Shown here: piece after piece, positions 4,887 through 21,066 of the stretch
How positions within the stretch are numbered: position 1 is the first letter of the stretch
Layout: every line of letters begins with the position of its first letter
IMG/VR virus record: IMGVR_UViG_3300044961_000149
Span: 1-21,150 of that record
DNA length: 21,150 bases
Source of the DNA: a virus
Strand: one strand, 5' to 3'
The notes under the pieces: model-generated
What the model saw: only the letters and a program-made list of their open reading frames with translations
What the model was told of the DNA's origin: nothing
Databases searched by the model: none
Made by a program: the position numbers and the translations under genes

Positions 4887-6644
4887 TCATATTTTACCGG
4901 GTTTATCTAAACAACACTGTTGTCCAAGTTCGCACAATATCTCCTGCATTATTAAGTTAGCGTTTCGGTATCTTGTGCTTATTTTAGGAGAATAAGATTC
5001 GTGTAGGCCGGGAGCGACCATATTAGCTCCTATCGTTGATTCGTCTGAAACACAGTCAGATAGCGTAACCAATTCAAAGTCGTCCTGAACCTCTACCACT
5101 TCTGAGTCCCCCCCCTCTCTTAAAGGCTCTACTGATCCAAGGCCACGAGAACTTTGCCCAACTCTAAACCCCGCAAGTAAGATGTTTCTTACAATATTTC
5201 CCGATGGCGTTGGCAGTATCTCTACATCCCCGTAAACTTCATTGCCTTTCCAATTTACGTCAACTATTGCGTGACATACATTCTTTAAATTTACTATGTT
5301 TGAATTTCCAGTCCAGTGAGGCAATCCATTATATCTAGTATAAAAAGACCCATTATCAACTGTTACACAATGTACAGTATTATCATAGTCAACTTCTTCT
5401 ATACAAATGAATCTGAAATCCAAATGAATGGCTTTTGATGATTTAAAACATAGCCTATATAGAGTTTTTGAATTTTTTGCTTCTATCAATCTTCCTTCTA
5501 TTAACCTATCTTTAGGTGTCTGCTCTTTTATTACACCAGTTATCCCTAACTTCAACAAAATCTCATTAAAGTCTTCTATCATCTTCTTTGATACTGAAAA
5601 TATAGATTTTCTCTCGTATCCCTTATAAACTGGCTTAGTCTCATCACCAAGTAAATACCAATCAACAAATTCTTGAAGTAATTCTGATGATGCGTTTTTA
5701 ACATCTTTTGGAATATGTTTAGTGTACTTATCTCCTAGTTTTGATAGATATGTCCACAACCTCGCATCACTACACTTAAATATTAAACCTTTTCCATTTT
5801 TTCTCTCTGTTATTGTCCACTCTAATTCGCTTGAAAGTCCACTTATTAAGTTTAAGAACTTATCTGCTTTCTCCCCCTTATTCTGACTTATAAAGATACC
5901 GTAGCCTTTTGTACTATCTATATCAGTTATATGACCCTCTGCAAGATAGAATCCTAAAAATCCAAAAAAACTCTTAGAATCAAGAGTTAGCGGACTTAAA
6001 TATTTACTAATCCAGTTCTTGTTTGTAATATCTATATCTACACCCGGAATTATGTAGTATTTATCAGAAAAATCACCTATCCATTTTTCAGCGGTTATAG
6101 GTATTCTTAAATGTGAATTTTTATTTATTTTACTAATATCATAAATTTCTTGGGCAGTCTTTTCTACAAATTCATTATTCCTATCTAATAGATTGAACCT
6201 ATGGTTTGGTGTAACTACCATATCAATATTACGACCCTTTATGTGAATCATTTTACCTTTATAAGGTTCATTTACAACCCGTTTAACTGGCTGCATTTCT
6301 AATGCGCCTGTCTTAGTGTTTAGTGTTGGTATCTTTTCTCCAACTTCAACATCTTTAAGTAGTTTCCAGCCTGATTCTGTGAGAATTTCTGCTAAGTAAA
6401 ATTCGCATTCGGGATGGTCGAGTTCTCCGAACGCCCTTCTTTCTTTTATCTTATTCTCGTATAACCTTATCTCTCGCTCAAGTATATGTTTAGGATATAC
6501 CCTTTTATTCCTGTTGGGAGAATCAGCCCTTTGCAACAATACGTTCCTAATAATTAACCTTCCGTCATTCTTTTGGATTGACTCTATGAGGGCGGGTTTC
6601 TCTACTCCTATTAAAGCGGTATGTTCTATTAGTAATTGCTTCAT
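4887..6644 (-). CDS. 21: Prohead core protease gp21, intein-containing precursor
   Basis: The frame encodes 585 residues: exteins 1-79 and 448-585 (217 residues spliced, close to the 212 of T4 gp21) around a 368-residue intein. The N-extein ends AFGELDHPE; the His of LDHP (residue 77) is the expected catalytic His of this S-type herpesvirus-like protease family. The C-extein starts SNIVNLKNV and holds VGQSSRGLGSV (495-504), the expected catalytic Ser region. The intein separates these residues, so the protease should be inactive until spliced. gp21 degrades the scaffold and trims gp23 and other head proteins during maturation. The ATG has AAGG 7 bases ahead. A GIY-YIG remnant follows and a frameshifted gene precedes it. 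Confidence 0.94.
   Translation of the reverse strand: MKQLLIEHTALIGVEKPALIESIQKNDGRLIIRNVLLQRADSPNRNKRVYPKHILEREIRLYENKIKERRAFGELDHPECEFYLAEILTESGWKLLKDVEVGEKIPTLNTKTGALEMQPVKRVVNEPYKGKMIHIKGRNIDMVVTPNHRFNLLDRNNEFVEKTAQEIYDISKINKNSHLRIPITAEKWIGDFSDKYYIIPGVDIDITNKNWISKYLSPLTLDSKSFFGFLGFYLAEGHITDIDSTKGYGIFISQNKGEKADKFLNLISGLSSELEWTITERKNGKGLIFKCSDARLWTYLSKLGDKYTKHIPKDVKNASSELLQEFVDWYLLGDETKPVYKGYERKSIFSVSKKMIEDFNEILLKLGITGVIKEQTPKDRLIEGRLIEAKNSKTLYRLCFKSSKAIHLDFRFICIEEVDYDNTVHCVTVDNGSFYTRYNGLPHWTGNSNIVNLKNVCHAIVDVNWKGNEVYGDVEILPTPSGNIVRNILLAGFRVGQSSRGLGSVEPLREGGDSEVVEVQDDFELVTLSDCVSDESTIGANMVAPGLHESYSPKISTRYRNANLIMQEILCELGQQCCLDKPGKI
5304..6407 (-). mobile_element. Intein in gp21 with LAGLIDADG endonuclease (both acids kept)
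   Basis: The intein has 368 residues, from Cys80 to Asn447, followed by Ser448 as the +1 nucleophile. Block A is CEFYLAEILTESGWKLLKDV. Block B has TPNH (145-148). Block F and the end read VHCVTVDNGSFYTRYNG, then LPHWTGN. The penultimate residue is Gly instead of the usual His, a variant I recall from other phage inteins ending in GN/S. LAGLIDADG motif 1 is FLGFYLAEG (acid Glu236); motif 2 is VDWYLLGDE (acid Asp334). Both catalytic acids are therefore present, making this the inset most likely to code for a working homing endonuclease. The insertion point lies 3 residues after the catalytic His. Confidence 0.92.
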
Positions 6645-8828: not shown

Positions 8829-11783
8829 TTAATTAGGAAAATCATCGAGGATATTATCTTCATTCAGCATATTGACCGAGTCAATATTCTTATCTATTTC
8901 TAAAAGGGACTTTTTATTATCTTTATTGTATCTTTTTTCCAACCTTTTTATTAATTTTTCGTAAGATTCTTTGGCAACACTCGGCATTTCTATCTTATCG
9001 TTTTCCCTCCTACCTACGGGGTCTCTTCCAAAATCCTGATCTCTTTTAGTTTCAAAGTTTCCCTTATACTGTGGCGGCTTTCCTTCATTTTCCTCTCTGC
9101 CGTCCGGGGTATATAATTTCTCAATGTCTTCCTGTGATACGGGAAACATCCTACTACTTACTTGTAGGGATGCAATATCCCAAGGAGTTCCAAAAGATTT
9201 CCCAGATACCTGTGGATCATTGCCCTCTTCTGTGATTTGCTTTAGTCTAAAGGTCAGTTTTGCATCTTCTATCCTTCTGTCTATATCTGCTTTCCACTCG
9301 TCTTCGCTCATACCGAATATATTCTCATATATGTATTTTTGAGAAAACACGTTATCTTCTTTAATAGACTTTGCCAAGTCAACCTTTGCTGTCATAACGT
9401 CTGTTTTTTGACGCTCGAACACAAGACTTGGATTAGTCAAGTATATTTCAAATCCAAGCAAATCATCCTCTCTAAACCCTTGAGTATACAAGTGAATTAT
9501 TGCTATTTTATATAATTCTGAAACGAATATCTTCTGTACCCTTTCTACCGTCCTTGCGAACCTTACATCAAGAGATGCCAACCCAGCCTTTGAACTTCCT
9601 CCACTATCTTCTCCGTATCCGAGAAATTCTTTTGGTATCTTTAGTGCAGCCATCATTTTTTTTCTGACGTACTCCACGTCGTCCATAGCGTTCTGGTTTT
9701 GTAGGCCGGGCAACGTCTCTACCGAGTTTCCGCTCTGTCCGCCCCTTACTGGAAGGAACCAATCTTCTATCGCATTCTCAAGGTTATACCTTAAATTGTA
9801 CTCGCCTGTTTGAGGGTCTATGTATGGAGTTTTCTTCATCTCAGACACAATCTGCTCTACGTGAGCATCTACCTCTTCTGGTGCGATGTTTCCTATATCA
9901 ATTTTTACTATACGCCTCTCCGGCGCACGCATTATTCTGTGAAGAAGCACAGCATCTTCAAGTAAGGAAAGCATCTTGTATGACTTTTTAGCAGGCTCTA
10001 TGAAGGAGTTGTGAACTATTATTCCATTTGCAATGAAATTTGAATTGTCTGATTCAACTTGAATATCAAAAGTTTCTTGTGATTCTAATTGTTTTATACT
10101 CTTAACTGGTTTTAAGATTATATTATCAGAAGTAACTCTACTGTATTTTTTTTCTTGTCTTATTTTACTGCCCTCTAAATATATATAAAAATAGTAGCAA
10201 TCAGATTCTGGCAAAAATTTTTCTCTACTTTTTCGTGATAATCGGTGTCTATGTTTTATATTGGATGTTTTAATGTTTATAGTTGATGCTAATATCTTTA
10301 AATCTTGACATAATTCTCTATTAACCAATTCTATTTTATATCTCTTTACCCCATATTTATCTACATTAGTAGAGCCGTCTGCATCTATAAATCCCCTTAT
10401 AAAAGATTCTTTTAATTCTGGTGAAAGTTCAAATACCCAACTTGGAACCCGTTTTGTTTTAGCACCTCCTTTAAGTTCCATGTTGCTTAAAACAGTTGTT
10501 AACATCTTACTTGACACAATACAAGCATTTGGAAGTCCGTTATGTTTTGACTTGCTAAAATATGCAGTTTTACCACTAAACTTTTCAATTAAATTTTTAT
10601 AATAGTTGTTAATTTCTGGATAAACGCCACATGCAAAAGCAACTCTGTCCATAGTTAACCGACCGCCTCCAAGCAAAAACCCAAACAATCTAACAAATTC
10701 AGTATTTACAATATCTGGAACATTATCTATGTTATTTTTACATTCATTTTTATTGACACCATCCACTAAATTTTTATCAATAAAAACATCTCTGGATAAT
10801 GTATTTTTATTAGAATTTAAAACTAATAAATCCCCAACAACTATTTTATTTGCTGGCTTATATTTTAAACTTTCCGATCCCTTGTCAAAACACAGTATTG
10901 GATGTTCTTGTGAACATTTAATTGAATTATTCTGTGTGCATATTTCTATTAAATTCTTTACTCCACTACTAACTTTATTTACAACATAACTTAATTCTAA
11001 TTTATCTGTATTAATGTTATAAGTCCAAACTTTGTCTCCAACTACCACGTTATCAATTGTTTTTACTCCAAATTCCATATCAATATATGAATCTTTGGGC
11101 AGGCAGCGACCGTATGGCAAGTAGTTTGTATCGGTTAGCAACCTAAAATGGGCTATTTCAAATGCCTCAAATTTTTCTTGTGTAGTCCAATAACCTCCAT
11201 CACCGTCATATACAAATTGAACTATATCAGGGTTTTCTTTGTCAAGCCCTTCCTCCCTCCTGATTAGGCTAGGGTGTATAGGCATTACATTAGTTATGCC
11301 AAACTCTTCGTCAATTTGAAGATATAAAAAGTGGTCTCCATATTTACACATTGTCCTTATCCAAGACCACAAGTTAAACTCAATGTTCAGCACATCATAA
11401 AATAAATTATGTAATATCTTCTTTATCTTCTCGTTATCTGTCCTTATTTTTAACAACTGACCGTCTACATCTACTGTAGTGCTTTCTTCTGCTATTAAAT
11501 CAAGGGCAGAGGATATAATAGCATCGCTATCCATAAGTTCATAATCAATGTAAAACATCTTTCTAAGCGACTCTATTTCTTCGTTGGAGGTACTTCCACC
11601 GAATCCGGGGCCATAGCCGCCCATTCTCCCGCTGCGCCATTTAGACCTGTTTGAGTATTTTGTCGGCGATCCGACTGATTGACTCTTGCTAACATCGTAC
11701 GCTTTAAGCCTCCCTCCGGGAAGATGCTTGATAAGCACGTTCTTGGTGAACATGGTTTTTAACCTGTCTCTTATAGTAGCCAT
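8829..11783 (-). CDS. 20: Portal vertex protein gp20, intein-containing precursor
   Basis: The frame encodes 984 residues. The exteins (1-226 and 593-984, 618 residues spliced) match T4-type gp20, somewhat longer than T4's 524. The N-extein has LRKMFYIDYELMDSDAIISS and IRTMCKYGDHFLYLQIDEEF. The C-extein has SFIEPAKKSYKMLSLLEDAV, ERRIVKIDIGNI, KIPKEFLGYGEDSGGSSKAG and LASLDVRFARTVERVQ, all hallmarks of the family. gp20 forms the dodecameric ring at one head vertex that starts head assembly, docks the terminase and joins the tail. The join TNYLPYGR/SFIEPAKKS restores the usual sequence once the 366-residue intein is removed. The ATG has AGGAGA 7 bases ahead and lies inside the end of gp17 (13-base overlap). 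The extra C-terminal tail is Lys/Asp/Glu-rich. Confidence 0.95.
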   Translation of the reverse strand: MATIRDRLKTMFTKNVLIKHLPGGRLKAYDVSKSQSVGSPTKYSNRSKWRSGRMGGYGPGFGGSTSNEEIESLRKMFYIDYELMDSDAIISSALDLIAEESTTVDVDGQLLKIRTDNEKIKKILHNLFYDVLNIEFNLWSWIRTMCKYGDHFLYLQIDEEFGITNVMPIHPSLIRREEGLDKENPDIVQFVYDGDGGYWTTQEKFEAFEIAHFRLLTDTNYLPYGRCLPKDSYIDMEFGVKTIDNVVVGDKVWTYNINTDKLELSYVVNKVSSGVKNLIEICTQNNSIKCSQEHPILCFDKGSESLKYKPANKIVVGDLLVLNSNKNTLSRDVFIDKNLVDGVNKNECKNNIDNVPDIVNTEFVRLFGFLLGGGRLTMDRVAFACGVYPEINNYYKNLIEKFSGKTAYFSKSKHNGLPNACIVSSKMLTTVLSNMELKGGAKTKRVPSWVFELSPELKESFIRGFIDADGSTNVDKYGVKRYKIELVNRELCQDLKILASTINIKTSNIKHRHRLSRKSREKFLPESDCYYFYIYLEGSKIRQEKKYSRVTSDNIILKPVKSIKQLESQETFDIQVESDNSNFIANGIIVHNSFIEPAKKSYKMLSLLEDAVLLHRIMRAPERRIVKIDIGNIAPEEVDAHVEQIVSEMKKTPYIDPQTGEYNLRYNLENAIEDWFLPVRGGQSGNSVETLPGLQNQNAMDDVEYVRKKMMAALKIPKEFLGYGEDSGGSSKAGLASLDVRFARTVERVQKIFVSELYKIAIIHLYTQGFREDDLLGFEIYLTNPSLVFERQKTDVMTAKVDLAKSIKEDNVFSQKYIYENIFGMSEDEWKADIDRRIEDAKLTFRLKQITEEGNDPQVSGKSFGTPWDIASLQVSSRMFPVSQEDIEKLYTPDGREENEGKPPQYKGNFETKRDQDFGRDPVGRRENDKIEMPSVAKESYEKLIKRLEKRYNKDNKKSLLEIDKNIDSVNMLNEDNILDDFPN
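10008..11105 (-). mobile_element. Intein in gp20 with LAGLIDADG endonuclease (first acid lost)
   Basis: The intein has 366 residues, from Cys227 to Asn592, with Ser593 as +1. Block A is CLPKDSYIDMEFGVKTIDNV, followed by VGDKVWTYN. Block B reads KCSQEHPIL (Ser in the place of the usual Thr, His kept). Block F and the end read TFDIQVESDNSNFIANGIIV then HN, with the standard His-Asn. LAGLIDADG motif 1 is LFGFLLGGG, where the catalytic acid position is Gly373 (GGC, one transition from GAC). Motif 2 is IRGFIDADG with Asp469 intact. Splicing should be normal; cleavage of DNA is doubtful. Confidence 0.93.
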
Positions 11784-14467
11784 TTAAGATTCTCCTTTTG
11801 TCCTCTCACATCCATTTGCCATTTGTCTGCTCCAATAGGTTGTGGTTTGTAAACTGATTTGTGTGTATTTCTTATTGCATTTTTAATAAGTTCTATGCCC
11901 ATTTGCCTCATTCTTAGGGCAGTGTCTCTTATGTACATTCCCATAGCCCAGCACATAACCAAGTCGTCGGTTTTTCCTCTCTGTGCCTGCGGTTTTCCAT
12001 CATGCCATACGAAAACTCGCAACTCGTTCATAAATCTCTTTGAGTATATTATAGGGGTTCTTTCCCGAAAATACATCTCTAATTTTGATACAAAAACTGG
12101 CCTCAACCTTGTAGTTGTGGTTAATCCGGGTATCATATCCTCTTTGTTCTTTAGATCATAGTTCTTTCTTAAATGTATATTTTCATCAAGATAAGGGTCA
12201 TTTTTGTAAGAATAGTACAGGTTTTTATACCCTAAATCTAAGGCTACTTGAACTGTGCTCCAACCAACGTTTTTGTTGTCTATAACAAGCAAAGCATTAC
12301 CATACTCAGTAGCAACCGCAACCCCCATTCTTCCAAAAGACTGCGTATCAATCTTACCTCTATACTCTGCTACTTGCTCACAAGTTTCTACATCTATAAC
12401 CTGCATACCTGAGTTATCTTCTCCATCTCCACGAGCGGGGTCAAGTACAACAATGTAGTCTTTTATAGGGTCTGGGTACTTCCAAATCCAAAGGTCTCCT
12501 TCTACCCCTCTTTTTTCTAAAGGTTCTATGGTCTTTGCGTCATACTCTGCAAGTATGTCCGCTTCTATTACAGTGTGACCAGAGGTTAAAAAATCGCAAT
12601 CACAATTATGAACAACACCATGTTCTGTTATATAAGTGTGATCCTCATATACTTCTAAATTATATACCTTGACATCTTCTACAACACCTTCACTAATAAT
12701 TAGTCTGTTTTTAACATCACAAGAATATGAATTTTTAAAACTATAGGGAATATTTTTATTCCTTTTATAAGATAAATAGTAAGATTCTCTTATATTTACT
12801 ATCCTGCCTTCTATTGTTTCAACACCTGCTGTCTTTACCCTTCTTATTGATGTGTTTTTTATATTCAATAAATCTGAAATTGACTTTAAATCGTACAATA
12901 GTTCTAAGGACACTGTTGTTGATGTTTTTTTATACTTCTCTAACAGACACCCATCCCCTTGCAAATACCCTTCTAATATCCCTTTAAAAAAATTATAATT
13001 TCCATAAATATATGTGTTTTTAGATAATTTCTTTGTTGAGGATGAAGTACCTTCTACAAAAAAGTCAATAAAACCTGATATTATTGTGCTTGATATAGAT
13101 ATTTGTCCTGTGTTTTTTCCCGTAACCCTATCGTTAATCGGCGATTGTCCAAATAGTTTATTTAGTTTTTCAAACAGGTCTAATTTCCACTTGTTTAGTT
13201 CATGTTCTGCATTGCAACTAATTATCAATCTTGTTCGTGTTTTAGAACCTTTTGCCAAATATAGCCCAATCAAATGACCGGATTCCCAATCTATTGGGAT
13301 GTATCTAAAATATTCTTTTTTATGCCTTCTGTCATTTATGTAAAATCTATTAGCATCTTCTGTTAGTTTTTTCTTAAAGAATACAGGACTTAACACATCG
13401 TATAAATCCAAAATACTCGTAGAACTTTTAATTTCAAAATCAGGCAAATTACACAACACATGTTCATTATTAAAATCTCCAACATTTACCCACCCATTAT
13501 CAGTTAAAAACGGGTGATTTTTAGTAACAAAGGATTTTTTTAACCTGTTATTTGAACTATATAATTCTACACAATTATTAGATATATGACTCATAACCCT
13601 TACCACAGGTCTTAGTCTGCCTTTGTGAGTAAACACTAATTCGCCTATTCTTATGTCCTTTATACACTTATATCCAGTCTCAGTCAGCACTCTGGTATCT
13701 CCATCAAAACATTCCTGAGCTGCTTGTCTCTTTCCTAACAAATGGTCATAACCGTCTCTCCACTTCTGATCTCGTTCTGGGTGCAAATACCAAGGTAGTT
13801 TTATTGGATTAAATGCTTCTATACCATCAGCAACACCTTCTTCTGCTTTTACCCAAAGGTCGTGGAACGTGTTTCCTGTTCCGTTCGGTGTTGATAGTAT
13901 TATACATTTACCGCCTGTTGCTAATGTCATCTGCGCTGATGTCCATATAGCTTCAGAAGACTCTACGAACGCGAACTCATCACAAATTAACAGTGACAAG
14001 GACGCTGAACGTGCAGCATCAGGTGAACTTGATACTGCTTTGATTGAACTTCCGTTGCTGAACACAAGACTTAACTTGTTTTTGTTTACTATTGACAAGC
14101 CTCCTTGCTTTAGAAAGTTTGGAAGCAGCTCGAACATCAACTGAACCTTTTCTACAAGGCTCTTGGCTACTTCTTGTGTGGTTGCTATTACCAATATTTT
14201 ATAGTCGTCATTGAACATCATCTCATGTAGGGCATACCCTGCTGTTAATGTGCTTATGCCCATCTGTCGAGACTTTAAAATTATGTTATACCTGTTCCGT
14301 TGAAGTTGGTATAAAGTTTCCTCTTGGAAAGGATACAAGTCAAATAATATCTTTCCTTTCTTAGGGTGCGAAATCTTTGCGTATTTCTTAAAGAAATAAA
14401 CTGGATCGGTACCGCACTTTAAGAACTCGTCTTTTACTATCTGTCTTAAATTATCTGGGGCTTCTAT
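11771..14467 (-). CDS. 17: Terminase large subunit gp17, intein-containing precursor; no ATG start
   Basis: gp17 is the ATPase-nuclease motor that packages DNA through the portal. Numbered from an ATA at 14467-14465, the precursor has 898 residues (529 after splicing). Residues 2-43 (EAPDNLRQIVKDEFLKCGTD, then PVYFFKKYAKISHPKKG) continue into LYPFQEETLY as in gp17 homologues, so this region belongs to the gene. The Walker A variant SRQMGIST is at 66-73, Walker B LLICDEF at 159-165, and the coupling motif STPNG follows. Nuclease acids appear as VLDPARG (Asp676), VIDNKN (Asp730, where T4 has Glu) and GKTDDLV. An in-frame TGA sits directly upstream and no ATG, GTG or CTG exists before it. The first common start is a TTG at 14338-14336, which would remove 43 conserved residues and has a poor ribosome site. 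AGAGGA lies 7 bases before the ATA. Confidence 0.93.
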   Translation of the reverse strand: MEAPDNLRQIVKDEFLKCGTDPVYFFKKYAKISHPKKGKILFDLYPFQEETLYQLQRNRYNIILKSRQMGISTLTAGYALHEMMFNDDYKILVIATTQEVAKSLVEKVQLMFELLPNFLKQGGLSIVNKNKLSLVFSNGSSIKAVSSSPDAARSASLSLLICDEFAFVESSEAIWTSAQMTLATGGKCIILSTPNGTGNTFHDLWVKAEEGVADGIEAFNPIKLPWYLHPERDQKWRDGYDHLLGKRQAAQECFDGDTRVLTETGYKCIKDIRIGELVFTHKGRLRPVVRVMSHISNNCVELYSSNNRLKKSFVTKNHPFLTDNGWVNVGDFNNEHVLCNLPDFEIKSSTSILDLYDVLSPVFFKKKLTEDANRFYINDRRHKKEYFRYIPIDWESGHLIGLYLAKGSKTRTRLIISCNAEHELNKWKLDLFEKLNKLFGQSPINDRVTGKNTGQISISSTIISGFIDFFVEGTSSSTKKLSKNTYIYGNYNFFKGILEGYLQGDGCLLEKYKKTSTTVSLELLYDLKSISDLLNIKNTSIRRVKTAGVETIEGRIVNIRESYYLSYKRNKNIPYSFKNSYSCDVKNRLIISEGVVEDVKVYNLEVYEDHTYITEHGVVHNCDCDFLTSGHTVIEADILAEYDAKTIEPLEKRGVEGDLWIWKYPDPIKDYIVVLDPARGDGEDNSGMQVIDVETCEQVAEYRGKIDTQSFGRMGVAVATEYGNALLVIDNKNVGWSTVQVALDLGYKNLYYSYKNDPYLDENIHLRKNYDLKNKEDMIPGLTTTTRLRPVFVSKLEMYFRERTPIIYSKRFMNELRVFVWHDGKPQAQRGKTDDLVMCWAMGMYIRDTALRMRQMGIELIKNAIRNTHKSVYKPQPIGADKWQMDVRGQKENLKWLL
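12605..13711 (-). mobile_element. Intein in gp17 with LAGLIDADG endonuclease (first acid lost)
   Basis: The intein has 369 residues, beginning at Cys (13711-13709) after AAQE and ending at Asn (12605-12607) before CDCDF. Block A is CFDGDTRVLTETGYKCIKDI. Block B has VTKNHPFLTDNGW (TxxH). Block F and the end read VYNLEVYEDHTYITEHGVVH then N, with Cys as +1. LAGLIDADG motif 1 is LIGLYLAKG, where the usual Glu/Asp is Lys (AAA, one transition from GAA). Motif 2 is LEGYLQGDG with the Asp kept. Removing the intein joins AAQE to CDCDFLTSG, the normal gp17 sequence that follows the ATPase domain. Splicing looks intact, while DNA cleavage is doubtful. Confidence 0.94.
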
Positions 14468-15496: not shown

Positions 15497-17503
15497 CTAA
15501 GTATTAAAATTATTGTTAAAAACGTATTTTTTCCAAATATTAAAAATAGGAACCAAAGCAGCGAAAGAGCCTGTGAGTTTAAAAGTTCGGCCACCCCACT
15601 GAAAAACAATACCTTCTATAGGGTTAATAGCAGAAAACCCCCCCAAACGATCAAGCAAATAAAAAGAATCCTCAAAAGTTGATAAATCGGAATCGTTAGT
15701 CAAAGAATTGCCAACATAATCAATGATAGAAACAACCCTGTTAACGTTGCCAGCAAAGTCAGGAATTCTAAAATTATGCTTAATGACTGCATTGCCTAAA
15801 TCAAGTATAAATAACTTGATTTCAAAAAGCTGTTCAGTAGGAAGTGAAATTATGTTAGCAGATTCTGGGATTTTAAACTTATGTTGGAGCAGGTTCAGTC
15901 GGGCTATGAGCAGGTCTGCGCTTGGCAATGCGCTCAATTTTACCTTCGGGGTTTCTATTATAGCCACTCCTTCATACGTCCTTCCTAAGACAACATCCAC
16001 CACTTCGGGCAAAACCGAGGTTCTGTGCAACTCGTTGCCCATTTGGTCATACGTTATCATGCCATGCACGGATAGTGCCTTGTAGCCCGTTTTTAACACA
16101 TTTAAAGGCTCTTCATGCAAAATCTCAAAGTTAAGAAACACTGTTCCATTCCCAAACACTCTGTTTAGGGCGTTTTTGTCTGCGCCGGACAGAGCTGCTT
16201 CAATTACTTTAAAAGCCTCGCAAAAAACAGCCCGCGCTTTTGGCTTGTCCGCATATTTAATAGCCAACTGTTCAAAAGACATAGGGCTTACTACAGTACT
16301 TTTGTTCCTTGAGCAAGCGAACCTTCCGTCTCTATAAGTCATCTGAAAATTCCATCCATCTAATTTTAAAGTACAATCGGCTATGCTCTGTACGTTTTTA
16401 GTGACATCAAAGACAAACCTCTTCAACTCAGTAAAAGTCATGTCTGTTTCGTATGGATGGGATATGTGCCTATTATATTTTCCTTGGTTTGTTGTGTCAG
16501 GCTCAAAAACTTCTTTAAACTGTTCGACCTTATATATTGGATCACTGGTGTAAAAATTCTTCTTCCTCATTACTGTTTTGGGCACGAGATCGAGTTCTTT
16601 TTTATCCTTGTCCCACTTTATTATAAAAGGTATGTTTATGTCGGTGCTCATGTCTTTTAACACGCCCTCTGCCCCTGAATTTGCCTTAGACAGGGCTTCG
16701 CCGTATTTCTGAGAAACTTTCCTGAACAACTGTTTTATTTCGTCGGCAGTAATCTCAGGCTTGTTCCTTGGGTCGTTCAACCTTTGATAAAAGTGACTGT
16801 CCCTGAGCATGGTCTTGAAGTCTATACCAATCCCAAACCTAAAGAACAGTGCATCAGCATATTGCTCCAGTCTATGCAACTCTGTTTTGCTTATACGAGA
16901 CTCTTGTAAAGAGTCAAACGCTTCTTTTACGAACGAAAGGCTTTTATTTGATTGAAACTTCCTTCTAAAGGTGCTGTAAATACTATCATCAAACCATCCC
17001 ATCAGGTCAAGCATTTCTTTCCTTGTACAGTCCGATAATACCTCCCTTAGATATGTTCCACATATTTCATTTCCGTTATGAAATATGCTAACGTGAGGAG
17101 CCACAACCACATACGCACTGTCCTTGAAAGGGTCTAATACGTGTTGCCCAATGTATTTTTTAAAGTATGAAGGGCTTCCATCCCTTTTCTTAAACCCAAT
17201 CCTGCCATAATCCTTTTGTCCATACACTACTATCAACCTGTCTACTTTTTTATCAAATTTGCTCAAAAGATTTATTGGCATGTAGGGCTTTTCTGCCTCT
17301 ATTATCTTGTTTTTGGGTATTCCGTATTTTCTAATTACAGCAGACTTTTCCTCAAAATTAAGGGGGCTTTTGTCATCAACTGCATTACTCGTTGAAATAT
17401 ATACATTATCCGCACCAAACCTTTCTGTCACCCATTCATAGGTTTGATAGTGATGTTTTCCAAACGGCTGAAATCTTCCGGGATATATTACTATCGTTTT
17501 CAT
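15497..17503 (-). CDS. Two-domain protein: NMNAT-like adenylyltransferase plus ligase-like nucleotidyltransferase
   Basis: Residues 1-160 of this 668-residue protein look like a nucleotidylyltransferase of the HxGH superfamily. GRFQPFGKHHYQTYEW (9-24) corresponds to GRFxPxHxGH with a degenerate His motif (GKHH). VYGQKDYGRIGF lies in the middle, and ICGTYLREVL (147-156) corresponds to the ISxTxIR phosphate-binding motif. This class includes NMN adenylyltransferases of NAD synthesis. The C-terminal part carries, in order, KLDG (380-383, nucleotidyl-Lys motif I), YRDGRFACSR (390-399), VFLNFEILHE (455-464, motif III), LSVHGMITYD (477-486, motif IIIa), EGIVFQW (630-636, motif IV) and FKLTG (641-645, possible motif V). 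This is the pattern of ATP-dependent DNA/RNA ligases and capping enzymes. I infer a fusion of two nucleotidyl-transfer domains; substrates are unknown. The ATG overlaps the stop of the fibre gene as ATGA. Confidence 0.75.
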   Translation of the reverse strand: MKTIVIYPGRFQPFGKHHYQTYEWVTERFGADNVYISTSNAVDDKSPLNFEEKSAVIRKYGIPKNKIIEAEKPYMPINLLSKFDKKVDRLIVVYGQKDYGRIGFKKRDGSPSYFKKYIGQHVLDPFKDSAYVVVAPHVSIFHNGNEICGTYLREVLSDCTRKEMLDLMGWFDDSIYSTFRRKFQSNKSLSFVKEAFDSLQESRISKTELHRLEQYADALFFRFGIGIDFKTMLRDSHFYQRLNDPRNKPEITADEIKQLFRKVSQKYGEALSKANSGAEGVLKDMSTDINIPFIIKWDKDKKELDLVPKTVMRKKNFYTSDPIYKVEQFKEVFEPDTTNQGKYNRHISHPYETDMTFTELKRFVFDVTKNVQSIADCTLKLDGWNFQMTYRDGRFACSRNKSTVVSPMSFEQLAIKYADKPKARAVFCEAFKVIEAALSGADKNALNRVFGNGTVFLNFEILHEEPLNVLKTGYKALSVHGMITYDQMGNELHRTSVLPEVVDVVLGRTYEGVAIIETPKVKLSALPSADLLIARLNLLQHKFKIPESANIISLPTEQLFEIKLFILDLGNAVIKHNFRIPDFAGNVNRVVSIIDYVGNSLTNDSDLSTFEDSFYLLDRLGGFSAINPIEGIVFQWGGRTFKLTGSFAALVPIFNIWKKYVFNNNFNT

Positions 17504-20500
17504 ATTCTTATTTCATGTTTTATTATTTTGGCAGATGTAGCGACATAAGCAGTCCAAAAAAAAGAAGAAGTAGGTCTTAAATTCATGTTAATCTTTATAT
17601 TACCTGAACTTAACGCATCGGATACAATTGAAATTTTATACCAATTTGACAAATCTTTTTTATTTCCAAAAACAGTACCATAACCCCCTAAAGAGCTACT
17701 ATTATTGGCAGAACTTGACACTAATGATATACCTGATATGTAAGTTCCTAATATGTCTTTTGGGTTATATAATATCCTGAATTGACACGTTGATGCCCAA
17801 TTATACGTATCTATCGGAGAGGCCAAACTACCGGTTATCCCGTATATCATATTTTCTACTTCTACCAAATGGGTTGCATTATATATGGTTGGTGTGATGG
17901 GCGTATTATCATCACTTCCTAACAATACTGGAATATATACATTAAAGTTAAAATTTGCATTGTTTACACTATGTACGCTTTGTGTTATAAAATCTACTCT
18001 CGTAGTCCAGTAGCTTGAACTATACCCTCTTTCAATATTTACACCGCTCCCCATCCTTACCCTATTATCAGTAGAACTGCTTATATACTTTAAGGGTTCA
18101 TTTGCTACTGAACCTGAAACTGTACCGTCTGATGTTAAAATTCTATATATGCCGGGGGTTTTTATTACTGGTTTATTAGTTATTTGGTCATAATTTACTT
18201 GTTTAGAAGAACTATACTGTCCAGAAAAAGACCCTGAGAAAGAGCCTGTTGCACGAGCAACTACCAAAAAAGAAGATATTGTGACGCTCCCGCTTACTGA
18301 CTGGTTCCCGTTGAACTGGTTAGATCCTGTTGTGGCGTATGAGCCTGTTTTTATTTCTATGTTGTTAAGTCTTGTGTCGTTAGAACTGGTGTAAGTATTA
18401 AGTGAGCCTGTGGTAAGCTCAATAGCGCTAAGTCTTATGTTTGTAGACCCTGTGTGGTTGTTTAAGGGAATTATAGAACTCGTGTATAGATACGAACCTG
18501 TTATATTTTCAATACCGATTACCCTTGTATTGATGCTCCCTGTAAAAGTATTGAGCGAACCAGTAGTCTGCTCTATCGAATACACCCTTTTCGATAAAGA
18601 ACTTGATACGTATGTAAACGATCCACTTATATCAGACCCTATTTGAGCGGAACTTGAGACTAATCCCGTTCCCTTTCGTTCATACCTTATATCATAAGAA
18701 GATGTAAACTGCTCCGATCCAGAAGATACCCCTGTTGGTAGTAATACTTTTATTTGAGCAGAACTTGATGGCATTCCTTGGAAAATGCCACTGAAACTAC
18801 CAGTAGCAAATACAAAGGAAATAGACCCGCTTACATCTAGTGAACCTGTTATTTTCTGATTTCCAATAAACGTATTTGAACCAGTAGTTGCGTATGACCC
18901 AGTATTTGTCTCAAGCGAGTTTAATCTTGAATTTGCTGAACCTGTAAATATGTTTAAACTTCCAGTTGTTTGCTCAAGCGAGTATATTCTTTTTGATATG
19001 GAACTGGATACGTCGGTAAATGACCCGCTTATATCAGACCTTATTTGAGCAGAACTTGATATTATACCTGTTCCTTTTCTTTCGTATCTCCAATCAAAAC
19101 TTGAAGTTAACTGGTCACTTCCAGATACTGTTCCGGAAGGTATAGTAGTACTGACCGCAGCCGAAGAACTTGCGGTATTCCCATCAAACACTACTCCATA
19201 TAGAGAAGTACCGATATTAGCCTTTTCGTTCTTTGAGTTTAAATATTCAATGAATATGCCCAGTTCTGAGCGGGCATCGAACTCTTTTGGTAGAGGTACT
19301 TCAAGGTCAATGTAATTTGCAGAATATCCGGGCTTGTTTCTAACAGAAAGCGTGATATTAGAATACACTGCACCAGTTGTCCTGTTTACAAACCTCGGCG
19401 TAATCTTTCCGTCCTTATTAGGCACAAAGTAGAATGTTGGGCTACTTTTTAACGTTTTGCTATCGTCAACACTTCCTATGTAAGTCCCAAACCTTGCGTT
19501 CTTTATAGGAGAATATGTTGCCGTCTGATTAGACGTTACATTGTCAATCTCTGAACCAGATATGTAAACATCCAACTGTCTTCTTATTGTGGTGGGGGTG
19601 TTGCCAAGGTATGCCATATCAAAAGACAACTCATACTCTGTTCCTTTTTTAACAGGTATTAAGTAATCATGTAACAAGTAGAACTCTGAGTACTCAAGAG
19701 AAGTTCTAAACGAACTGCTGTCAGGGAACAGTACACCATTCAAAAGGGCATCATTGTTTGAGAAAGATATAGCACTCCCTGTCGTACTAGAACCCGTCCA
19801 ATATGTCAAAGGGTTTCCGAGTTTCCTGAAATCTCCTAGACCTAAAGGTTCTATACCTTTGGATGTCATAGTGTATGACCCTGTTCCTACTGTCAATATG
19901 TTCTTTCTGCCAACATCGTATGTCCCAAGGTCAATGTATTGACCGGGTTTATTTATGCTTTTTGCTTTTACATTTATAGCCTTTATAGAACCTATTGCAG
20001 GCTCTGAATTTTCTATTTGTAACTTTATATAAGAATCATAACTTGCCGTTGAAATAGTTAATTTAGGCTCTATGTGATAAGATGCTGTAAAATTACTAAC
20101 CTCTCTAAATCCATCCAATACTAATTTTCTCGCTGTTCCTGTATTATCAGTATAGTTTAATATATGATAAAAAGTAGGCGTTACAAAACATGTGCTCTTG
20201 TTCACTATCTTTACTATTGACCCACTGTAATTAAGAACCTTTGACTCTGTTAGGACTGCATTGGCTGGATATGAGTAAGGGATGTTGTTAAAATATAACC
20301 TCCCCCCTTCCATAGAAGCAGTGATGTCGAAATTAGTAAAATAAACAGATGCTATCTCATTACCATCTCCTATTGGAGTGATAGGGACAAATGTTGCGGA
20401 AGAAGTTCCATTGCTCAATATGTGGCCAGAGGTAGCCCCTCCCCTACTTTCTATCTCTTTTACGGTGTTTAGTTGCCCTCTGTTAGAATACATTGTGGCT

Positions 20501-21066
20501 GTTGAAGAAGAAGTAGAGTATATATTTACCAATCTGTTATCAGTGTTTAACCTATACTGAGGCTTTCTGATCTCTGAATATGTTACGGTCGGTGGAATGG
20601 AAAAATAAACAGGACTTTCCACTTCTTTCGGGTTTATTTGAAGTACCTTTCTCCAAACTACATTTGGTATTCCGTGAAAGTCCTGCGAACTCGGATCATT
20701 TGAGTAAGGTATCTTTAAGCCTGTCTTTGGGTTTGTTTCGAGCCTTCCTGCTATTATTAATTCGCACTCGCCTATAGGGGTAGTGTCATAAATATAAACA
20801 ACGACAATCCGCTCTTTGTTGGGCAGATTATCTCTGATTATCGTATAATATATTGGGTTGCCAAATTTATCAAGTATGTCTATAAACACCTCTGATCTAT
20901 GAACAAGCACATTACCGTTGAGGTGTAATTTAAAAGAGTTTTTCCCAAGTAAAAACTTATCTGGAAGGTCTGTGACCTTGAAGGTATAATCTGCATTTGC
21001 GGATATGTCTTGAAATACGTATGTTTTATTTTTTAGTCCGTTTAACGGTCTTTTTAACTCAAGCAC
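17500..21066 (-). CDS. Large repeat-rich structural protein, probable tail fibre or baseplate appendage
   Basis: The product has 1188 residues. The start is GTG, with GGAGG 7 bases ahead. The first 150 residues (KTYVFQDISANADYTFKVTD, IDILDKFGNPIYYTIIRDN) look like a beta-sandwich attachment domain. Residues 150-640 are beta-rich and Ser/Thr/Gly-rich. Residues 645-950 hold a long duplicated segment with SSSAQI, DISGSFT, LEQTTGSLN and RLNSLETNTGSYATTGSN, typical of trimeric fibre shafts with short coiled stretches. The last 200 residues form another beta-rich domain with few charges, which might be the receptor-binding tip. No chaperone or peptidase domain and no cysteine-rich region is seen. 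Such proteins are common in T4-like phages of aquatic bacteria. The partner gene upstream overlaps it by 13 bases. Confidence 0.75.
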   Translation of the reverse strand: MLELKRPLNGLKNKTYVFQDISANADYTFKVTDLPDKFLLGKNSFKLHLNGNVLVHRSEVFIDILDKFGNPIYYTIIRDNLPNKERIVVVYIYDTTPIGECELIIAGRLETNPKTGLKIPYSNDPSSQDFHGIPNVVWRKVLQINPKEVESPVYFSIPPTVTYSEIRKPQYRLNTDNRLVNIYSTSSSTATMYSNRGQLNTVKEIESRGGATSGHILSNGTSSATFVPITPIGDGNEIASVYFTNFDITASMEGGRLYFNNIPYSYPANAVLTESKVLNYSGSIVKIVNKSTCFVTPTFYHILNYTDNTGTARKLVLDGFREVSNFTASYHIEPKLTISTASYDSYIKLQIENSEPAIGSIKAINVKAKSINKPGQYIDLGTYDVGRKNILTVGTGSYTMTSKGIEPLGLGDFRKLGNPLTYWTGSSTTGSAISFSNNDALLNGVLFPDSSSFRTSLEYSEFYLLHDYLIPVKKGTEYELSFDMAYLGNTPTTIRRQLDVYISGSEIDNVTSNQTATYSPIKNARFGTYIGSVDDSKTLKSSPTFYFVPNKDGKITPRFVNRTTGAVYSNITLSVRNKPGYSANYIDLEVPLPKEFDARSELGIFIEYLNSKNEKANIGTSLYGVVFDGNTASSSAAVSTTIPSGTVSGSDQLTSSFDWRYERKGTGIISSSAQIRSDISGSFTDVSSSISKRIYSLEQTTGSLNIFTGSANSRLNSLETNTGSYATTGSNTFIGNQKITGSLDVSGSISFVFATGSFSGIFQGMPSSSAQIKVLLPTGVSSGSEQFTSSYDIRYERKGTGLVSSSAQIGSDISGSFTYVSSSLSKRVYSIEQTTGSLNTFTGSINTRVIGIENITGSYLYTSSIIPLNNHTGSTNIRLSAIELTTGSLNTYTSSNDTRLNNIEIKTGSYATTGSNQFNGNQSVSGSVTISSFLVVARATGSFSGSFSGQYSSSKQVNYDQITNKPVIKTPGIYRILTSDGTVSGSVANEPLKYISSSTDNRVRMGSGVNIERGYSSSYWTTRVDFITQSVHSVNNANFNFNVYIPVLLGSDDNTPITPTIYNATHLVEVENMIYGITGSLASPIDTYNWASTCQFRILYNPKDILGTYISGISLVSSSANNSSSLGGYGTVFGNKKDLSNWYKISIVSDALSSGNIKINMNLRPTSSFFWTAYVATSAKIIKHEIRI
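18220..18726 (-). repeat. Fibre repeat, copy B (residues 781-949)
   Basis: This copy starts SSGSEQFTSSYDIRYERKG and repeats copy A through SSSAQIGSDISGSFT, SKRVYSIEQTTGSLNTFTGS and TGSYATTGSNQFNGNQSVSG. It differs by carrying additional short units (NTRVIGIENITGSY, NIRLSAIELTTGSLN, DTRLNNIEIKTGSY) in place of a single unit in copy A. The change in unit number suggests growth by slippage or unequal recombination. Confidence 0.8.
18775..19125 (-). repeat. Fibre repeat, copy A (residues 648-764)
   Basis: This copy starts SGSDQLTSSFDWRYERKG and runs through SSSAQIRSDISGSFT, SKRIYSLEQTTGSLNIFTGS, NSRLNSLETNTGSYATTGSN and TFIGNQKITGSLDVSGS to ATGSFSGIFQG. The same order of motifs returns in copy B about 400 bases further in transcription. 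Confidence 0.8.

Follow-up and report, generated by a model that had tools for sequence, protein, structure and literature searches.

Two of the three inteins encoded by the window, the 21,150-base virus record analysed here, very probably carry homing endonucleases that have been disarmed while the inteins still splice. The record contains T4-type portal (Portal_T4), prohead protease (Peptidase_S77) and terminase genes, all on the minus strand, and the inserts in these genes (gp20, gp21 and gp17, Table 1) are inteins in which a monomeric LAGLIDADG homing endonuclease is nested. One of the two metal-binding catalytic acids of this enzyme has been lost on the window lineage, Glu to Lys in gp17 and Asp to Gly in gp20, and the two nucleases would most likely no longer make the double-strand break that homing needs. 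Splicing would have been preserved, as the phage needs it for its terminase and portal protein. From the residues involved it can be inferred that the gp17 and gp20 inteins have lost cleavage and continue to splice; the acids would have been lost either when selection for homing ceased or through selection against cutting.

Table 1. Intein host genes, inteins and LAGLIDADG motifs of the window
Feature	Position	Strand	Basis
gp17 large terminase, host gene of the intein	11771..14338	-	Pfam Terminase_6N; PHROG terminase large subunit
gp17 (TerL) intein, 369 aa, site AAQE^CDCDF; LAGLIDADG endonuclease within Hint splicing domain	12605..13711	-	sequence; model mean pLDDT 85
gp17 motif 1, LIGLYLAKG; Lys codon AAA (13250-13252) where relatives have Glu	13247..13273	-	
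gp17 motif 2, LEGYLQGDG; Asp retained	12950..12976	-	
gp20 portal, host gene of the intein	8829..11783	-	Pfam Portal_T4
gp20 (portal) intein, 366 aa, site LPYGR^SFIEP	10008..11105	-	sequence; model mean pLDDT 90
gp20 motif 1, LFGFLLGGG, followed by W149R; Gly codon GGC (10665-10667) where all relatives have Asp	10662..10688	-	
gp20 motif 2, IRGFIDADG; Asp retained	10374..10400	-	
gp21 prohead protease, host gene of the intein	4887..6644	-	Pfam Peptidase_S77
gp21 (prohead protease) intein, 368 aa, site GELDHPE^SNIV	5304..6407	-	
gp21 motif 1, LGFYLAEG; Glu retained	5934..5957	-	
gp21 motif 2, VDWYLLGDE; Asp retained, next residue Glu instead of Gly	5640..5666	-	

The window also encodes a 1,188-aa protein (17500-21066) that contains repeated segments rich in Ser/Thr/Gly and matches nothing in PHROG or Pfam, and a 668-aa protein (15497-17503) with a cytidylyltransferase-like match at its N-terminus.

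All three inserts have the N-terminal Cys, C-terminal Asn and Cys or Ser at +1 that are expected of a splicing domain. The splice residues are C1, a block-B TxxH or SxxH, and HN^C (gp17), HN^S (gp20) or GN^S (gp21), with Pfam and NCBIfam matches, and the GN ending is the usual form within the gp21 intein family. Both LAGLIDADG motifs of one monomeric domain are present in each intein. The full endonuclease domain (inteins of 366-369 aa) distinguishes the three from mini-inteins, and each lies within one open frame and is not a split intein; some relatives have split forms at the gp17 site or next to it. Of the acids at position 8 of both motifs that mark an active endonuclease, gp17 (K/D) and gp20 (G/D) have one each and gp21 (E/D) has both. 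The original prediction had read Lys and Gly at the first motif, Asp at the second motifs and both acids in gp21, and this reading is confirmed; the gp21 intein (5304-6407) falls outside the region (10008-13711) to which that prediction was assigned. The further claim that each loss is a single transition also holds for the ancestral residues deduced from relatives, with GAA to AAA for the gp17 Glu and GAC to GGC for the gp20 Asp.

Mean pLDDT is 90 for the AlphaFold model of the gp20 intein (m85bd18fe5cd5) and 85 for that of the gp17 intein (m9c653d212ef8). The LAGLIDADG helices span residues 135-147 and 229-243 in the gp20 model and 142-154 and 239-252 in the gp17 model. Position 8 of either motif thus comes to lie at the C-terminal end of its helix, with the changed residues, gp20 147 and gp17 154, ending the first one, in agreement with the proposed active-site location. 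Profile alignments, with positions counted by hand, equate position 8 with Asp149 of the PI-PfuI chain (1DQ3) and with Glu288/Asp383 of the PI-PkoII chain (2CW7). The solved folds nearest to both models are the TliVMA and PhoVMA inteins.

An assembly or sequencing artefact can be set aside as a negligible possibility. A twin record, IMGVR_UViG_3300045902_000205, has 9 mismatches to the window across 17,378 bases and nevertheless encodes three intein proteins identical to those of the window, including both acid changes, which makes an assembly error unlikely. Comparable alleles in related phages, the L230 and L232 types described below, are each represented by two or three contigs, and no point in support of an artefact was found.

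The portal site offers the clearest comparison. A survey using an alignment of three same-site inteins as the query, with search patterns in the splicing domain, yielded 32 loci, 23 of which, twin record included, encode full-length endonuclease inteins; all of these except L122 and L124, which have other contexts, are located at LPYG[KR]^[SC] or one codon earlier. Position 8 of motif 1 is Asp in 22/22 of those other than the twin record (~17 distinct), and position 8 of motif 2 is Asp in all 23. The search patterns of the gp20 and gp17 surveys do not touch position 8 of motif 1. As the other gp20-type inteins all have Asp at this position, the Gly of the window is derived. Where the 15 compared relatives are invariant, the window intein departs from them at three positions, D147G, W149R and G210E; all of these belong to the endonuclease domain, and its splicing domain departs at no such column. 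Seven distinct endonuclease-free mini-inteins (~146-183 aa) occur at the gp20 site or one codon before, carried by L125, L126, L127, L128/L129, L130, L131 and LR756508. Several of these deletions look independent, since L131 (96% identity across its 156 aa), L128 (86%) and L125 (80%) each match a different full-length intein, L120, L118 and L105, respectively. The gp20 site shows a natural series leading from intact through acid-lost to endonuclease-free forms. The portal gene of LR756508.1 (L092, 7761-11921) apparently contains three inteins, the first being a 150-aa mini-intein at the gp20 site of the window.

Relatives of the gp17 intein were harder to find. A nucleotide search of phage genomes gave nothing useful, and scans with single proteins yielded only the twin record as a close relative of either the gp17 or the gp20 intein; relatives of both were recovered instead by an alignment scan and a splice-junction DNA pattern. 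The alignment scan retained 80 TerL loci, every one uninterrupted at the gp17 site, and the view that no orthologue exists at this site was then overturned by the junction pattern. Searching with a DNA pattern of the C-terminal HN^CDCDF junction gave 33 contigs, of which 21, twin record included, have complete contiguous inteins at AAQE^C. The closest same-site relatives share 41-43% identity with the window intein and none outside its own twin record exceeds 43%, so the window branch is long. Among the complete relatives, position 8 of motif 1 is Glu in all except L230 and L233 (Lys), and position 8 of motif 2 is Asp in all except L232 and L234 (Gly). The Glu exceptions all lie within one population, with E-to-K and D-to-G alleles of its own. 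That TerL-site relatives keep Glu outside this population shows the window Lys to be derived. Because L226 and L223 keep Glu, it can further be inferred that the E-to-K change of the window arose independently of that in L230.

Split forms are found in the same region of TerL. In L216, L228, L240, L241 and L243, short open frames ending in HN^CDCDF look like the C-terminal halves of split inteins at the exact gp17 site of the window. In L081 (9612-12398) and L082 (2275-4406), on contigs G005 and G007, the TerL gene is apparently fractured by a split intein, and L081 has a separate 255-aa open frame without a Pfam match between the halves. The G005 and G007 split inteins were considered as orthologues of the gp17 intein and ruled out, as their junction is two codons downstream.

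The population with the exceptional alleles comprises five near-identical contigs (L223, L230, L232, L233 and L234) and a sixth, L326, added by a pattern scan. All six contain the TerL intein, in a search able to find intein-bearing contigs only. The two acids of this intein are Glu/Asp in L223, Lys/Asp in L230, L233 and L326, and Glu/Gly in L232 and L234. The portal gene of L223, L232 and L234 has an extra insert of ~1.29 kb, an intein by Pfam with HNH-like-looking sequence, that is absent from L230 and L233. Among the first five contigs, the TerL block has 11 variable codons: three nonsynonymous (I30T, E152K, D250G) and one synonymous in the intein, none and seven in the extein (Fisher p 0.024). 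Two of the three amino-acid changes thus fall exactly on the two catalytic acids among 368 codons, with a chance of 4.4e-5 under random placement; both positions had been named beforehand by the original prediction. This placement suggests that the inactivation was selected rather than the result of drift alone.

Selection against nuclease activity, arising from the cost of cutting or from interference by a neighbouring intein, is an alternative to passive drift after fixation that deserves serious consideration, at somewhat less than an even chance. In its favour, every amino-acid difference of the TerL block lies within the intein, the intact L223 and the disarmed L232 alleles are separated by only 3 sites in 4,753 bases, one of which is D250G, and E-to-K appears to have arisen independently at least twice. 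Neighbouring haloarchaeal inteins interfere with each other in homing (PMC10643990), which would be one possible reason to disarm. However, the argument draws on one population and three nonsynonymous changes, and the relative rates of the window also fit some relaxed constraint. For the acid-focused changes of this population, a selected switch-off of the nuclease fits at least as well as passive decay. A wider proposal, rather doubtful as yet, is that single-acid loss is a recurrent, selected switch-off of phage intein endonucleases, with the two disarmed inteins of the window lying near a third that has both acids and might carry its neighbours by co-conversion.

The enzymes might alternatively retain a reduced activity. 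Residual or single-strand cleavage is possible because gp17 and gp20 keep the other acid and the block-D lysine, and the fold is also retained. Single-acid enzymes that nick one strand or cut weakly could keep some mobility or a role in stimulating recombination, and the full endonuclease domain persists even though mini-inteins are viable at the gp20 site. This explanation is nevertheless improbable, given that all other gp20-type inteins retain the residue lost here, that gp20 has also lost W149 and G210, and that PhoVMA, without its active-site aspartates, lost cleavage (PMC8966425). Searches of the literature for a catalytic-acid nickase within this endonuclease family turned up nothing decisive. 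Disarmed nucleases in splicing inteins thus remain the preferred reading.

The original prediction had further placed the three endonucleases at different stages of decay, with gp21 as the one that has both acids. A ranking of such stages finds no support. A gp21 survey with six gp21 inteins as the query gave 80 loci; among the 78 that were tabulated are the twin record and some inteins located in genes other than gp21. The motif-2 Asp is present in 78/78. The residue after it is Gly in 75/78; of the remaining three, the twin record has Glu, and L281 and L282 have Asp. Conservation of the motif-1 Glu was not counted as evidence, as this residue forms part of one search pattern. Motif 2 of the window gp21 intein ends in GDE and not GDG, a difference that the original prediction does not remark on, nor does it mention W149R and G210E of gp20; this Gly-to-Glu change may weaken the gp21 nuclease even with both acids kept. 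Relative branch lengths were used in place of dN/dS, the inteins being ~30-60% identical; the rate of the endonuclease versus the splicing domain on the window branch was taken relative to the rest of the tree, on fixed topologies with 60 bootstrap replicates each. The endonuclease-domain excess is 1.7x in gp20 (bootstrap 1.05-3.7), 1.65x in gp17 (0.99-4.5, an interval that touches 1) and 1.8x in gp21 (0.88-3.1). These values suggest, with modest support, a weaker constraint on all three endonucleases in the window lineage and, being alike, give no ordered stages.

The idea that gp21 is the newest arrival fares no better, as a same-site intein is found in many relatives and none beyond the twin record is more than ~61% identical to that of the window. 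Identity to relatives is 48-61% for the gp21 intein and 40-53% for its extein, 32-43% and 44-53% for gp17, and 37-46% and 28-57% for gp20. The resemblance among the gp21 inteins thus somewhat exceeds that among their host proteins, as could result from exchange or from a stronger constraint. The GC content of the three inteins, all AT-rich, gave no arrival order. The homing cycle, also invoked by the original prediction, fits as a general account (PMC1654191, PMC3229294), but prior fixation, its premise, finds no support here: the gp17 site is unoccupied in most related phages, and in the same loci the portal sites that could be seen are likewise uninterrupted.

Degenerate intein endonucleases are well known, mostly from isolated species. 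In the present case, intact, acid-lost and endonuclease-free versions can be compared at the same insertion sites, and near-isogenic alleles, distinguished chiefly by their catalytic acids, occur within a single population. Such natural alleles would allow a direct test of passive decay after fixation against selection against cutting.

Several known systems resemble those of the window in part. The Thermococcus litoralis VMA intein (TliVMA, 7QSU/7QSS) is the best structural match to both models, but it is an active nuclease with both acids (PMC8966425). The Pyrococcus horikoshii VMA intein (PhoVMA, 7QST), also among the top structural matches, retains the LAGLIDADG fold without the active-site aspartates; it is degenerated and regained cleavage after active-site regions were grafted (Beyer and Iwai, PMC8966425). 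One aspartate was lost there by a deletion within block E (PMC8966425), whereas the losses in the window are single-base substitutions in block C. Mycobacteriophage TerL inteins likewise reside in the phage large terminase, and a functional LAGLIDADG endonuclease is present in some of them (PMC5050341), but their families, TerL1 and TerL6, are reported in the ATPase domain (PMC5050341), whereas the window intein is in a T4-type terminase at AAQE^CDCDF. In the three-allele homing model, empty, degenerate and functional alleles are considered (PMC3229294); the L223/L230/L232 population similarly has functional-type and degenerate-type TerL alleles together, and, as in the model, also varies in the presence or absence of the neighbouring portal intein. 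Whereas that model is theoretical (PMC3229294), the alleles described here are natural phage alleles that differ at the catalytic acids.
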